Assembly (NCBI RefSeq): GCF_002024805.1
Contig: NZ_CP014337.1
Span: 62,001 to 126,000 of the forward strand
Direction: 5' to 3'
Origin: Elizabethkingia bruuniana
GTDB taxonomy: Bacteria; Bacteroidota; Bacteroidia; Flavobacteriales; Weeksellaceae
Length of the DNA stretch: 64,000 nt
The position numbers and the translations under genes are program-made. Shown in pieces: positions 46,820 to 52,118 of this stretch. Each line of letters opens with the position of its first letter. The first letter of the stretch is position 1. Under the pieces are notes generated by a model. The model worked only from the letters and a program-made list of their open reading frames with translations, did not search any database and had not been told where the DNA came from.

Positions 46820-48016
46820 TTATTTAGCGTTTTTTTGCTTTAATTCCTCCTTATCCTTTTCAGAAGGATTCCATACTTTGATTTCAGAATCTTTAGTGAT
46901 ACCAGAAAGTACCTGTACGTTGATACCATCACTAGCACCAAGAGTTATATATACTTTTTTAAACTTACCGTCTTTTTGTTTTACTTCTACGAAAGCTTTG
47001 TCTTTGTTATTTTGTTTTTCATACTGGATAAGAGATTCATCCAAAAGAAGAGCATTTTTCTGGCTGTTCATAATGATTTCACCATTGGCAGAGAATCCTG
47101 CGCGGATATACTCGTTGTTAGGATTGAATACATCTGCTTCCAGAGGGAATTTAATACTTCCTGTTTCATCCTTTCCTTTAGGAGCAATTAACGTTAGCTT
47201 TCCAGGGAAAGTTTTATTTTGTAAAGCCCCGATGATGATATTCATATTCATTCCTTCTTTTAGTCTTCCAGCCTGTGCTTCGTCGATAGTACCTTTAAAA
47301 ATAAGTGAATTAAGGTCAGCGACAGTACAAATAGTTGTCCCAGCATTGAAGTTATTTGCTTCGATAACCTGGCTACCCTCTTTTACAGGAATTTCCAGAA
47401 TAGTACCATTAAGCTTGGAACGAACTTGGGTTGTTGCCAGACTTTGTAATTCTGGTGTAGATCCGGTTCTGGCAATCTGAAGGCGCTTTTCAGCAGTTCT
47501 TAACTGTTGCTCTGCAATTGATACAGATTGTGCTGCACCTTTATATTGTTGTTCAGCATTGTAATATTCCTGTTTAGAAATTACACCTTGTGCAAAAAGC
47601 CTTTTTTGCATATCATACTGCTTTTGCTGATTGTTTAAAGTAATTTTAGCATTGCCAATCTGCAATTCGGCGTCCTTTATAGACTGTTGTGCAGCATTCA
47701 TCTCAGAAATACTAGGTACAACATTAATTGTAGCGATTAACTGCCCCGCTGTAACTTTATCTCCTTGTTTTACGTGAATAGATTTTATAATCCCGGGAAT
47801 ATTTGGTTTTATCTCAACCTCCCTGCGTGGTACAATTGTACCAGTTGCAAGTACTTTATCCTCCAGTGTTTGTATAGTAGGTTTACGTGTTAAGAAGGCC
47901 TCTTCCTTTGCAGAATTGGACGAGATCATATAACTGATACCTTTAAAAAGAACCAGCAATAGGATAATTCCTAAGATGATATAAATGATTTTTTTGAAGT
48001 TGAGCTTCTTTTTCAT
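46820..48016 (-). CDS. MacA-like periplasmic adaptor (membrane-fusion protein)
   Basis: 398 aa. N-terminal membrane anchor (about 10-30), a biotinyl-lipoyl-like barrel half (IKPNIPGIIKSIHVKQGDKVTAGQLIATI, near 65-95), a long helical hairpin (105-185, Gln/Ala-rich coiled coil), then the second half of the lipoyl domain and a beta-barrel. It bridges the MacB-like permeases to an outer-membrane channel. It is the last gene of the minus-strand operon after the permeases; no TolC gene is in the window. Confidence 0.92.
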   Translation of the reverse strand: MKKKLNFKKIIYIILGIILLLVLFKGISYMISSNSAKEEAFLTRKPTIQTLEDKVLATGTIVPRREVEIKPNIPGIIKSIHVKQGDKVTAGQLIATINVVPSISEMNAAQQSIKDAELQIGNAKITLNNQQKQYDMQKRLFAQGVISKQEYYNAEQQYKGAAQSVSIAEQQLRTAEKRLQIARTGSTPELQSLATTQVRSKLNGTILEIPVKEGSQVIEANNFNAGTTICTVADLNSLIFKGTIDEAQAGRLKEGMNMNIIIGALQNKTFPGKLTLIAPKGKDETGSIKFPLEADVFNPNNEYIRAGFSANGEIIMNSQKNALLLDESLIQYEKQNNKDKAFVEVKQKDGKFKKVYITLGASDGINVQVLSGITKDSEIKVWNPSEKDKEELKQKNAK

Positions 48017-48069
48017 ATAATTATTATTTTTTTATTAATAGAAATTAATGGGTAATGAATCAGTCGTTT

Positions 48070-48093
48070 GTGAATGTGTCAATGAGTGAATTG
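48070..48093. repeat. Inverted repeat, left end of four-helix-bundle unit
   Basis: 24 bp with blocks GTGAATG, GTCAATG and AGTGAATTG. It matches the reverse complement of 48491-48514 at 22 of 24 positions. Confidence 0.85.
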
Positions 48094-48107
48094 TGAATAA
48101 TTAATTT

Positions 48108-48461
48108 TTATGATTTTAAAAGATTACTTAGTAAAATGAATGTTGATATGATATAATTTCCTAATTCTGTCAATTCTTCTGGTTTTATATAATTTCTTTC
48201 AATAATAACCTCGCAGCAGGTATCGATTTCTACTATTGAGCCTCTTGCGATTTTATAAAATCTGTTTCTTTCTGTTTTTGATTTTCTGGATGAACCTTCG
48301 GATATATTTAATAGTACTGATGTTGATGCTCGTTTCAGTTGGCTTTTTAAATTAAAATTTTCAGAATCAGGTAATTTTTCAAGAATATCATAAGATGCAT
48401 TAAGTAGCTTCTTTGCTGATTTATAAACTTCCAGATTTTGATGATTCAATTTTAAAAACAT
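48108..48461 (-). CDS. Four-helix-bundle protein (23S rRNA-IVP / S23 family)
   Basis: 117 aa, predicted four antiparallel helices, with the family blocks NLEVYKSAKKLL, FNLKSQLKRASTSVLLNISEGSSRKSKTER, FYKIARGSIVEIDT. Related in fold to Avd proteins of diversity-generating retroelements, but no reverse transcriptase is nearby. It lies inside the MacAB-type operon between permease and adaptor, bracketed by 24-bp inverted repeats (48070-48093 and 48491-48514). Its own function is unknown; position and repeats point to insertion as a small mobile unit. Confidence 0.9.
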   Translation of the reverse strand: MFLKLNHQNLEVYKSAKKLLNASYDILEKLPDSENFNLKSQLKRASTSVLLNISEGSSRKSKTERNRFYKIARGSIVEIDTCCEVIIERNYIKPEELTELGNYIISTFILLSNLLKS

Positions 48462-48490
48462 AACATACTATTTTATTGATATATTCACCT

Positions 48491-48514
48491 CAATTCACTT
48501 ATTGACCCATTCAC
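48491..48514. repeat. Inverted repeat, right end of four-helix-bundle unit
   Basis: Reverse-complement partner of 48070-48093, two mismatches. Read on the minus strand it forms part of an 8-bp array (AGTGAATA, GGTGAATG, GGTCAATA, AGTGAATT) at 48491-48523. Confidence 0.85.
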
Positions 48515-48526
48515 CTATTCACTGTT

Positions 48527-49798
48527 TTATTCTGTTCTTAATGCTTCAATAGGTTTTATTCTTACTGCTCTTTGTGCCGGAATAAGTCCGATAATCAGTC
48601 CCAGGAATACCATCACAAACATGGCAGAGAATACATTGGAATAATTAACACTCGGATTATAAAACGGGAATGAATCATTGTTTTCCGTAAGAGCATTAAT
48701 CCCCATAAGCAGGAATATACCCAGGAAGAAACCAATAAGGCCTGAGCTAAGTGTGATAACGACACTCTCCAAGAGGATTTGGTTACGAACTTCCGAAGGT
48801 TTGGCTCCCAATGCACGACGAATACCAATCTCTTTAGTACGTTCTTTCACTGTAATCAGAAGAATATTGGAAATGGCAATAACTCCGGCAATAATAGTAA
48901 GTGTTCCTACAATAATGGTCAAAAACTGCATTCCGGTAAGAAAACCCGTTAGCTTTTTGAATTCTTTCCCCAGATTAAAACTTCCATAGGCGTTTTCATC
49001 TTCAGGAGATACATGGTATTTTTCTTTTAATACTCTTTTTGCATTATCTTCTATCTGAGCAAGATCTGCATTGTCTTTTCCTACAACAGCAAACATTTCG
49101 GCAACATCTCCGTTATTAAACATTTTATTGTATGTTGTGAAAGGGATAAAGACCATATCATTGCTTTCCATTCTGGGGCCATTTGTCGCCACTTTAAAAA
49201 CTCCGATAACAGTAAAATATATTCCTTTTATTGTTACTGTTTTACCAACAGGGTTTTCTCTTTTTTTAGCATCAAAAAAAGATTCATAGACCTCATTTCC
49301 GATTACTACTACATTTTTGTTGCCCGAGATATCAGGATCGTTTATATAACGCCCGAATGTTAATTTCTTTTTACTGATGGCATCTCCAATAGGATAGTCT
49401 CCGGTGATTCCATAATTACCTTTTTTTCCGTTGCGTACTAATGGTTCGGGTTTCCCAAAACGTGCTCCACGACTGTTTTGTGGTGAAATGTACTTAATGC
49501 CCGGAACTTTATTTTTCAACATTTCTATGTCGTTGGTATGCAGCTTCATTAATTTTCCTTTTGGGAATCCTCCATAGGGAATAGAAGTGCTCTGCGCCCA
49601 CATAAAAATAGAATTGGTAGCAAAGCCATTGAAAGTTTTATTAAAACCGTTTTCAACACCTTTGGCAGCTCCCAGAAGACTTACATACAGGAACATACCC
49701 CAGCCTACGCCAATCATGGTAAGGAAAGTTCTGAGTTTGTTATTACGCAGTGAGTAATAAATCTCCTGCCATGTATCTAAACTAAATAATAATTTCAC
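48527..49798 (-). CDS. MacB/FtsX-type ABC permease 2
   Basis: 423 aa. MacB_PCD architecture: one N-terminal membrane helix (about 20-45), a large periplasmic domain (50-290), three C-terminal membrane helices with the conserved ISNILLITVKERTKEIGIRRALGAKPSEV loop (about 310-340), ending PIEALRTE. It is paralogous to permease 1 (12 bp upstream), so the transporter is probably a heterodimer driven by the ATPase upstream. Confidence 0.93.
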   Translation of the reverse strand: MKLLFSLDTWQEIYYSLRNNKLRTFLTMIGVGWGMFLYVSLLGAAKGVENGFNKTFNGFATNSIFMWAQSTSIPYGGFPKGKLMKLHTNDIEMLKNKVPGIKYISPQNSRGARFGKPEPLVRNGKKGNYGITGDYPIGDAISKKKLTFGRYINDPDISGNKNVVVIGNEVYESFFDAKKRENPVGKTVTIKGIYFTVIGVFKVATNGPRMESNDMVFIPFTTYNKMFNNGDVAEMFAVVGKDNADLAQIEDNAKRVLKEKYHVSPEDENAYGSFNLGKEFKKLTGFLTGMQFLTIIVGTLTIIAGVIAISNILLITVKERTKEIGIRRALGAKPSEVRNQILLESVVITLSSGLIGFFLGIFLLMGINALTENNDSFPFYNPSVNYSNVFSAMFVMVFLGLIIGLIPAQRAVRIKPIEALRTE

Positions 49799-49810: not shown

Positions 49811-51040
49811 TTATTCTGTTCGTAATGCTTCGATTGGTTTTATCTTGGAGGCACGGTAAGCCGGAACGAATCCCGCAATAGCACCTGCAATTACAAGGCA
49901 TAAGAAGGCGAAAATTACCATTCCTGTGCCTACTTTTGGCTCTTTTATAAAATATGGTTCCAGGCTATTTCCTAACAGATTAAGTGTTAATAGGCCGAAT
50001 AATACACCAACTAGTCCGGAGATTACTGTGATAACCACACTTTCCTGTAATATAAGAGCAACAATACTGTTTGGTCTGGCGCCAATAGCTTTCCTTACAC
50101 CTATTTCTTTTGTTCGCTCTTTGATAATATACACCATAATATTGCTGATCCCGATGATTCCGGCGATTAGTGTTCCGCCGCCAATAACCCCTACAATAAC
50201 AGTTAGTACAAGCATAAACTGTAAGGTATCTTTCATATTTTCAGCATTATTTCTTACAATAATACCATTGTCATCCGTAGGATCTATACGGTGCTTACTT
50301 TTCATGTCTTTTTTTATGTCATTTCCCAGATCAATAGCTTGTTGGGTAGACATTTTTTTGTCGTAGGTAACGAAAATAGTATTCAGCGTATCCGAACTTT
50401 TTTTCATCATCTGTAAAGTACTTACCGGAACAGTAATCATACGCTCGTCCCAGTCGCCACCATTATCAGAGAATACTCCGACTACAGTAAAGCTGGTTCC
50501 GTTAATATTGATTCTTTTACCAATAGGACTTCCATTTTTGATGAGGTCTTTCTGAACCAGCCGGCCAATTACCGCAACATTTTGCTGACGTGTTACATCC
50601 GATGCATTAATATACCTGCCATCTGTAACGAGTCTGTTTTCTATTTTTATTTCGTCGCTATTGGTACCGGAAATCTGATAATTACCACTTTCTTTTCCAT
50701 ATTTTACCATCATATTGGCACTATAACGCGGGGCAGCAGATTCAATCTGAGTTTTATTTTTATCAGTGATCTCTTTATAATCGCTGTTCCGCATGATAAT
50801 TTTACGATTGGACTGCATCCCCGCATAAGGCTTGGAAGTCTGTGTACTGAATATCGTAATAAGATTTGCAGCATCTCCGTTAAATTCATTTTGAAATGAA
50901 TTTTGTAATCCGTTACCAATACCAAAAAGAACAATAAAAATAAAGAGTCCTAAAGCGACAGTTACTCCCGACAAAATCGTCCGGAGTATATTACTTCGGA
51001 TAGAACTGAATATTTCGTGCCAGCGGTCTATATCGAACAT
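49811..51040 (-). CDS. MacB/FtsX-type ABC permease 1
   Basis: 409 aa, same design as permease 2: helix at about 20-45, periplasmic domain, and C-terminal helices with NIMVYIIKERTKEIGVRKAIGARPNS, ending KPIEALRTE. The two permeases differ enough that each may have its own role, as in other Bacteroidota two-permease MacB systems. The substrate (toxic peptide, lipid, siderophore or antibiotic) cannot be told from sequence. Confidence 0.93.
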   Translation of the reverse strand: MFDIDRWHEIFSSIRSNILRTILSGVTVALGLFIFIVLFGIGNGLQNSFQNEFNGDAANLITIFSTQTSKPYAGMQSNRKIIMRNSDYKEITDKNKTQIESAAPRYSANMMVKYGKESGNYQISGTNSDEIKIENRLVTDGRYINASDVTRQQNVAVIGRLVQKDLIKNGSPIGKRININGTSFTVVGVFSDNGGDWDERMITVPVSTLQMMKKSSDTLNTIFVTYDKKMSTQQAIDLGNDIKKDMKSKHRIDPTDDNGIIVRNNAENMKDTLQFMLVLTVIVGVIGGGTLIAGIIGISNIMVYIIKERTKEIGVRKAIGARPNSIVALILQESVVITVISGLVGVLFGLLTLNLLGNSLEPYFIKEPKVGTGMVIFAFLCLVIAGAIAGFVPAYRASKIKPIEALRTE

Positions 51041-51143
51041 ATTTTGTTATATTTTGTATGTTAATAGTGAATAAAGCTTATTAGTTGGAGGTGAAGTGCA
51101 ATCATTTTGTTATCAAATTCACTTATCCACATTTATGTATTCA

Positions 51144-51836
51144 TTATTCTAACACTAATTGTTTGATAAATTCGTCACTTTCAATAACGCCATCTTTCAG
51201 GACAACATTACGCTTGGTTTGTGCGGCAACATCAGGTTCATGGGTTACAACTACAATTGTTTTTCCTTCGTTATTAATCTCCTGCAATAGCTTCATAATA
51301 TCGTATGTTGTTTTGGAATCCAACGCACCTGTAGGCTCATCCGCCAGAATTACTTTTGGATTAGTAATAAGGGCTCTGGCAATAGCTACCCTTTGTTTTT
51401 GTCCTCCGGAAAGTTCGCTGGGTAAGTGATCTGCCCACTGAGCAAGACCTACTTTCTCCAGATATTCCAGTGCTTTTTTATTTCTTTCCTTTCTGGAAAT
51501 GTTTTGATAATAGAGTGGTAGCGCTACGTTTTCCAATGCTGTTTTATAAGAGATCAGGTTGAATGACTGGAAAATAAAACCTAAGAATTTACTTCTGTAG
51601 TCTGCTGCTTTTACCTCGTTAAGATTTTTAATGGGAACCCCTGCCAATTCGTAAACTCCTGAATCAGCTTCATCTAGTATTCCTATAATATTAAGTAACG
51701 TAGATTTTCCTGAGCCGGATGACCCCATAATAGATACAAACTCACCTTCTTTAATATTCAGGTTGATCCCTTTCAGAACATGAAGTTTGCTTTTTCCGGT
51801 GTCATAAGATTTTTCAAGATTCTCAATTGTAATCAT
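51144..51836 (-). CDS. MacB/LolD-type ABC ATPase
   Basis: 230 aa. Walker A GSSGSGKST, signature LSGGQKQR, Walker B VILADEPTGALDS, H-loop VTHEPDVA. It powers the permeases downstream. The open frame extends to 52001 but the conserved start MITIENLEKSYDTG at 51836 is chosen, since the extra 55 residues are not conserved in LolD/MacB ATPases. The 103-bp gap before permease 1 contains GTGAAT-like words, perhaps degraded repeat material. Confidence 0.93.
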   Translation of the reverse strand: MITIENLEKSYDTGKSKLHVLKGINLNIKEGEFVSIMGSSGSGKSTLLNIIGILDEADSGVYELAGVPIKNLNEVKAADYRSKFLGFIFQSFNLISYKTALENVALPLYYQNISRKERNKKALEYLEKVGLAQWADHLPSELSGGQKQRVAIARALITNPKVILADEPTGALDSKTTYDIMKLLQEINNEGKTIVVVTHEPDVAAQTKRNVVLKDGVIESDEFIKQLVLE

Positions 51837-52118
51837 TTCACGAGTTTTACTAATTGGTAGTATAGAAAGCCAGTTTGTTACACGAAAAATGTTTTTGAGA
51901 ATAATTTTAAAATGTTTAACCGATAAGTGCTTTAATTCAGGCAAAAAAAAATAAGTGTTTAATATATAGTACGTAATTAGGCATTTTCTAATAATATCCA
52001 CCTCTTAATTAGCGTAAACATAGGTACTTAGGTATAAATGTGGATAACTTTTTTACGAGAAATAAGGCTTTGACGGGGATGACGGCTTTTTCCACTTTTT
52101 ATTGTAAGGACCTTTTGA

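Follow-up and report, generated by a model that had tools for sequence, protein, structure and literature searches.

In Elizabethkingia bruuniana, a small gene of the S23 family, predicted to encode a four-helix bundle, lies between the permease and adaptor genes of a MacAB-type ATP-binding cassette (ABC) transporter operon and is enclosed by inverted repeats. Are these repeats the ends of a transposable element that carries the gene as a passenger, as an earlier note made from the sequence alone had proposed, or do they belong with the gene itself? The locus was analyzed within a stretch of 64,000 nucleotides (NCBI RefSeq assembly GCF_002024805.1, contig NZ_CP014337.1, positions 62,001 to 126,000 of the forward strand; hereafter the window, to which coordinates refer unless a genome is named). 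With moderate confidence, it is read here as an element of the intervening sequence (IVS) type, whose S23 protein recognizes its own repeat arrays and works like the REP-associated tyrosine transposases (RAYT, TnpA-REP) and their repetitive extragenic palindromes (REP). The element comprises the following features.

48070-48522, minus strand: whole element, an S23 open reading frame (ORF) between two GTGAATnn arrays, both pointing inward (repeat and pattern search)
48483-48522, minus strand: 5' array, on the sense strand GTGAATAG GTGAATGG GTCAATAA GTGAATTGAG GTGAAT (sequence, pattern search)
48108-48461, minus strand: S23 / 23S rRNA-IVP four-helix-bundle gene, 117 amino acids (PF05635, TIGR02436, predicted structure)
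48070-48098, minus strand: 3' array, reading GTGAATGT GTCAATGA GTGAATT GTGAAT on the plus strand and, in sense-strand orientation, inverted relative to the 5' array (sequence, pattern search)
48070-48093, plus strand: left arm of the 24-bp inverted repeat (repeat search)
48491-48514, minus strand: right arm of the 24-bp inverted repeat (repeat search)

Read along the sense (minus) strand, the locus runs from MacB-type permease 2 through the GTGAATnn array, the S23 ORF, and the inverted array to the MacA-type adaptor. The repeat search of the window confirmed that the 24-nt arms are 92% complementary (22/24 matching), and the inverted-repeat score of 23 for the 120-nt flanks of the ORF was reached by 0/2000 dinucleotide shuffles applied to both flanks (mean 9.2, maximum 20). 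The GTGAATnn array, which had been assigned to the right flank alone, is real and present on both sides: six matches with at most one mismatch were found in the window vs 0.56 expected, including 48509-48522, 48501-48514, and 48493-48506 on the minus strand and 48070-48083 and 48078-48091 on the plus strand. The right array of E. miricola (L010) is one 8-bp unit shorter. The element is intergenic within the operon, not inside an rRNA gene, and has complementary ends bordering the S23 ORF together with heptamer-like units, here of 8 bp. The Rfam search of 47900-48700 gave no match over threshold (best 20.6 bits, gathering 40).

The ORF matched PF05635 at 97.3 bits (cut-off 33.8, E 7e-28) and TIGR02436 at 86.6 bits (cut-off 24, E 1e-24), and it does split the permease and adaptor genes, as had been noticed. 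The AlphaFold model of the monomer showed four helices with a mean predicted local distance difference test score of 91.3. Its best matches among solved structures were 2GSC and then 2RLD, with Avd more distant; the available text of PMC4990558 describes 2GSC, a solved S23 protein, as a pentamer. The domain search of the window ORF returned PF05635 alone, a HuH tyrosine transposase domain was not found, and the S23 sequence has no recognized catalytic motif. S23 is under purifying selection, with dN/dS values (nonsynonymous to synonymous rate ratios) of 0.03-0.13 across 11 pairs of close relatives (two copies contain stop codons, which were skipped); the window gene differs from those of L010 and L011 by 3 and 4 bases, respectively, too few to judge selection. 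S23 was co-directional with both neighbors at 91/96 loci, compared with 47/90 for small genes (p = 8e-12). From these dN/dS values and the operon-sense orientation, it is probable that the S23 protein is translated from the transcript of the host operon and that it is retained. S23 genes were present in 51/60 genomes of the family and 85/118 of the phylum.

The structural likeness to Avd, the protein of diversity-generating retroelements, bears on a first alternative, namely that S23 cooperates, in the manner of Avd, with a reverse transcriptase supplied in trans. The fold resembles Avd (8UB7 and 4DWL; template modeling score about 0.75, Foldseek E 0.1-0.3), and genome G000 has three RVT_1 genes. 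The window S23 differs from Avd in that its weak match to the Avd profile NF033474 (20.1 bits) lies below the family cut-off of 80, its neighbors are ABC-transporter genes, and no reverse transcriptase adjoins it. Moreover, 46/60 family genomes had no RVT_1 match at E <= 1e-5, including the S23-rich genomes G009 and G031 (11 S23 genes each), G056 (10), and G040 (9). This distribution indicates that a reverse transcriptase is not required, and a retroelement is hardly credible as the source of present-day copies.

The earlier note had suggested examining the other four-helix-bundle genes of the genome, and most of its nine TIGR02436 genes were found between inverted arms of the same design. An ORF of about 117 amino acids lies between two inward-pointing arms of short tandem units of 7 bp, sometimes 8-9 bp. 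The unit differed by locus (TTAGAAG, TTTTAAA, TTAATTG, GTGAATnn, ATTGATA, and others), and L003 was an exception, with a plain short repeat only. The wider comparison covered 98 S23 loci of Weeksellaceae: 30 genus loci (33 from 5/6 genomes, less L048, L057, and L063, which were contig-edge or fragmentary) and 68 family loci (28 plus 40 more among the matches listed). Grouping by flanking genes gave 36 sites, with one representative each. The results showed a median score of 18.5 for matched arms and 10 for mismatched arms among the site representatives (p = 3e-19), 29/36 of which were at or above the 95% quantile of mismatched arms. An arm score of at least 14 occurred at 88.8% of the 98 loci but at 6.5% of 138 small genes from the same genome. 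Inverted pairing of the arms beat direct pairing at 90/98 loci, arm self-matches peaked at lags 7 and 14, and 14 of the 19 protein groups of the genus beat every mismatched arm pairing. The arms are locus-specific across the 98 loci. Two of these loci, L002 and L006 (G000:C1 1520065-1521988), carry distinct S23 genes with distinct units on either side of one gene, which we take by eye to be a member of a fatty-acid-oxidation operon; similar S23 pairs about 1.6 kb apart occur in other family genomes.

Does the repeat unit follow the protein? In the S23 tree, which is poorly resolved in places and has long branches including that of the window S23, neighboring proteins often carry an identical unit, even at unrelated sites. 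Clear arms were present at 87/98 loci; among these, pairs that shared neither site nor genome had a motif similarity of 0.42 at protein similarity above 0.6 (65 pairs), compared with 0.21-0.26 in 3,297 less similar pairs. The motif clearly tracks the S23 protein among close relatives alone; overall, the relation is weak. The flanking proteins of eleven such unit-sharing loci were different, as expected for unrelated sites, and are presumably, as read by eye, carA/carB, pyrB/carA, trpE/trpG, hsdS/hsdR, groES/groEL, and others. Since S23 is the constant part of these elements, is conserved by selection, and is tracked by the motif at high protein similarity, it is probably not a passenger, contrary to the description of the gene in the earlier note.

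Hairpins built of similar kinds of units but devoid of S23 were also found in the sampled stretches. A solo GTGAAT hairpin, GTCAATGGGTCAATAAGTGAAT-loop-ATTCACCCATTCACTTATTCACC, lies elsewhere in the window's genome and has counterparts in two related genomes (L262-L264; G000, G002, G003). Counts of the GTGAAT pattern in the genus were 11 in G000, 10 in G002, 5 in G003, 2 in G004, and 0 in G001 and G005. In the family, CAAGAnn arrays were detected in 21/60 genomes, comprising 10/10 of those with the cognate S23 clade (at least 68% identity to L098) and 11/50 of the others (p = 4.7e-6). The median number of TTAGAnn arrays was 22.5 in 8 cognate genomes vs 2.0 in 52 others (p = 2e-4), although 32/52 non-cognate genomes have some arrays and the reversed-pattern control was not empty. 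In the nine genomes without S23 at the search threshold, CAAGA arrays were absent and TTAGA arrays numbered 0-3.

Two further sets of arrays were observed. CAAGAnn arrays occur in or beside rRNA operons (L153; L268, L269, L271, L272), with a 16S-tRNA spacer and sequence that, by eye, resembles 5S rRNA as their settings. In L261 (1700-11900; G000:C1 about 1956700-1966900), several long intergenic 8-mer arrays stand without S23, with GTGAATnn grading into GTTAATnn and GTTTTACA, and some are repeated at 99-bp spacing.

Gain, loss, and relocation of the element were followed in the host operon, whose features in the window, together with an S23-less candidate, are as follows.

51144-52001, minus strand: ABC ATPase (ORF and profile matches)
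51066-51131, minus strand: candidate decayed S23-less GTGAAT hairpin in the ATPase/permease-1 gap (weak, hairpin score 8)
49811-51040, minus strand: MacB-type permease 1 (ORF and profile matches)
48527-49798, minus strand: MacB-type permease 2 (ORF and profile matches)
46820-48016, minus strand: MacA-type adaptor (ORF and profile matches)

Thirty macAB operons were compared, namely that of the window and 29 named loci, with L039, a distant match, excluded. An S23 belonging to the lineage of the window gene was present in 11/30 operons, in three different gaps and in different genera: the ATPase/permease-1 gap in L016, L023, L025, and L030, the permease-1/permease-2 gap in L027, L033, L034, and L035, and the permease-2/adaptor gap in the window, E. 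miricola L010, and E. occulta L011. For L016 and L033, which lie at a locus edge, the gap was deduced and the arms were not scored, and the S23 of L016 is a partial match (42.5% identity) whose placement in the lineage is less sure. Complete genes outside Elizabethkingia were 55-64% identical to the window S23, whereas the five same-genome paralogues aligned reached at most 37%. GTGAAT arms were visible in L023, L027, L030, L034, and L035, and weak in L025 (score 11). Other macAB gaps hold GTGAAT arrays without S23, such as 15 + 15 units in L016, and the ATPase/permease-1 gap, where the candidate decayed hairpin of the window lies, is home to the S23 gene in some Chryseobacterium.

The empty site that the earlier note had proposed to look for was found in Elizabethkingia sp. 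YR214, in which the gap occupied in the window is clean and 34 nt long; the gene and its arms can thus be absent as a unit. With this site and the repeat-flanked S23 genes elsewhere in the genome, neither of the two outcomes that the earlier note had named as refuting its proposal occurred. In addition, no S23 was found in the permease-2/adaptor gap of the 26 operons outside Elizabethkingia. Taken together, these two results are most simply explained by a gain of the window position within Elizabethkingia. At the L002 site, two related Elizabethkingia genomes without S23 retain two 5' units, and this state looks like a loss because related S23 genes occupy the site in several genera. Apparently empty genomes at the L001 site were rejected as such, as in two genomes this site holds a GxxExxY gene flanked by inverted CACAAAAG arms of its own (L161-L164). 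In Elizabethkingia, GxxExxY (TIGR04256) genes (L176-L190) were likewise observed between inverted short arrays, with matched arms at p = 9e-7 (15 loci) and 6/15 over the 95% null.

With its inverted ends, the lack of a transposase inside, and its absence from YR214, the element could be viewed as a miniature inverted-repeat transposable element, that is, a non-autonomous transposon that ends in 24-bp terminal inverted repeats, carries a passenger gene, and is mobilized in trans by a conventional transposase. The proposal of a non-autonomous element holds insofar as the gene and arms can be missing together; classical terminal inverted repeats shared by the copies were not borne out, as the unit is particular to the locus or S23 clade. 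The nine S23 loci of one genome show differing arms, and the enclosed gene, not the ends, is constant. A target-site duplication was not identified, the YR214 gap being too diverged and the S23-less L002 state keeping two 5' units. A transposon of this kind is accordingly regarded as highly improbable.

According to the preferred reading of a self-recognizing S23 element, the S23 gene would lie in the loop of a hairpin, both arms of which consist of the cognate unit, here GTGAATnn/GTCAATnn, in tandem copies. The S23 protein, a predicted ring-forming four-helix bundle expressed from the host operon, would bind the units in the arms of its own element, folded into a single-stranded hairpin of DNA or RNA. 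Its binding would promote the copying or transfer of hairpins, whether or not they carry the gene, into gaps that separate co-directional genes. The non-autonomous form would be the solo hairpin, as the REP is for RAYT. Direct contact of S23 with the units, mobilization of the element as opposed to mere inheritance and loss, and the kind of nucleic acid recognized are inferred. On the last point, the mismatches of the arms in sense RNA were of the G-U type in 108 and of the A-C type in 169 cases over 110 loci (p = 3e-4, opposite to a G-U bias), and a sense-RNA stem under selection was rejected. A unit-shuffle test gave 20.8 observed vs 17.0 shuffled over 61 loci, a difference that is biased because the observed arms were picked as best alignments. 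Since the mismatch types do not favor sense-RNA pairing, folded single-stranded DNA, or units read by the protein, would be the likely substrates.

The same mismatches bear on the possibility that the element serves in RNA processing or regulation. The arms would pair in the operon mRNA, and RNase III or S23 binding would remove or protect the S23 segment; the element would then be a spacer or autoregulator of the operon, not mobile, and the solo hairpins its regulon. In support, the available text of PMC4990558 describes the IVS of Coxiella burnetii 23S rRNA, which has a 28-bp terminal stem, is excised by RNase III, and contains an S23 ORF preceded by three tandem GACAGAT heptamers, strain-variable in number. 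Operon-sense orientation, purifying selection, and the retention of some sites across genera, e.g. the L002 site, agree with such a role. It does not fit the lack of a G-U bias or the gain, loss, and relocation of the element within one operon, and alone it leaves unexplained the common units of closely related S23 genes at unrelated sites. An RNA role of this kind is considered unlikely.

Another explanation would dispense with recognition by S23. Hairpins would pre-exist, their arrays arising from slippage and template switching, and S23 genes would land or survive in the loops or swap in by recombination between similar arrays. Solo arrays are common, the unit number varies between L010 and the window, and GxxExxY genes occupy similar hairpins, replacing S23 at the L001 site, all of which would be expected of a hotspot. 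However, tandem arrays (score at least 12) accompany S23 about ten times as often as they do other co-directional gaps (71% of S23 loci vs 6.8% of 74 gaps), and neither the units common to close S23 relatives at unrelated sites nor the cognate-array association across genomes is accounted for. Such a passive origin appears doubtful, and less probable than an RNA role.

The proposed self-recognizing S23 element was compared with known systems. Like the Coxiella IVS, as described in the available text of PMC4990558, it is a sense S23 ORF in an element of about 430-450 nt with complementary ends and heptamers before the ORF. It differs in lying between protein genes, not in rRNA, in having an S23 under purifying selection, not decaying, and in having clade-specific repeat arrays as both arms, plus solo hairpins. 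Mobility of the IVS ORF was suggested earlier (Ralph and McClelland 1993, as cited in PMC4990558). With RAYT/REP and REPIN (paired REP) systems, in turn, it shares one gene beside inverted repeats, many solo intergenic repeats, seen for GTGAAT as further copies of the cognate repeat away from the S23 gene, and a protein-repeat co-evolution that is reported for TnpA-REP in the available portion of PMC8266576 and suggested for S23. RAYT is a HuH tyrosine nuclease with palindromic repeats, whereas S23 is a four-helix-bundle ring without a recognized catalytic motif and with tandem 7-9-mers. Because S23 is not a HuH enzyme, the resemblance to RAYT/REP is one of likeness in working, not of membership.

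Outside the family, 21/30 loci of other Bacteroidota were over the 95% null, as were 7/10 plasmid S23 loci (ten taken of 31 S23-bearing records, nine of the ten cyanobacterial). Near-perfect heptamers (GGGAACA, GGTGACA, TAGGGAG) stand beside cyanobacterial S23 genes. In plasmids of Pseudanabaena and Anabaena, S23 with heptamer arrays was observed in the cas6/cas4 gap (L281, L282). Heptamer repeats of the GGGAATC class form intergenic arrays in Xanthomonas and Nostoc, with 70 convergent pairs in Xcc, most of which lie between ORFs that are aligned (PMC4692102), and TAACTGA repeats are another type of intergenic heptamer array (PMC4679880). In the available text of both papers, these are described as sequence features, with no S23-type protein partner and no mention of S23. 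The solved S23 structure 2GSC (XCC0516) likewise comes from X. campestris.

Several observations weigh against recognition and mobilization by S23. Neither a transposition event nor a target duplication was observed, and no enzyme was found. Five of the 19 genus groups failed to beat mismatched arms (L001, L004, L044, L047, L060), the all-range Mantel correlation of motif and protein was weak (r 0.10-0.20, p <= 0.05 in 13/20 draws), and the arrays of L281, on a cyanobacterial plasmid, are direct, not inverted. S23 is not the sole gene in such hairpins, GxxExxY genes being flanked by similar arms. The cognate array counts partly include the arms of the S23 genes themselves; arrays away from S23 were found in at least 6/10 cognate CAAGAnn genomes, and with these six alone the association has p = 0.024. 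In G057 (65% identity), the protein is present but the CAAGAnn motif is lacking, which gives p = 4e-5 if counted as a miss. Many CAAGA arrays occur without a close cognate S23 (42 in G035, 35 in G054, 27 in G036), as do 205 TTAGA arrays in G060.

To our knowledge, no function has been assigned to the very common S23/IVP genes, and no agreed account exists of how heptamer repeats arise in bacteria. A literature search, with subscription journals and preprints outside it, found, as far as it shows, no link of S23 or four-helix-bundle genes outside rRNA with flanking repeat arrays. The S23 family, these results suggest, supplies the protein partner that had been lacking for a widespread but unexplained class of repeats in bacteria. 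More tentatively, S23 proteins may generally partner short tandem (7-9-mer) arrays, the elements spreading without a recognized transposase or reverse transcriptase; the rRNA IVS would be a special case, and of the heptanucleotide repeats known from Bacteroidota, Cyanobacteria, and perhaps Xanthomonas, a part at least would be solo arrays. If S23 promotes this spread, it would do so without a recognized nuclease, transposase, or polymerase domain of its own. Linking S23 and the heptamer repeats gives each a testable partner, with a solved fold on one side and defined cognate sequences on the other.
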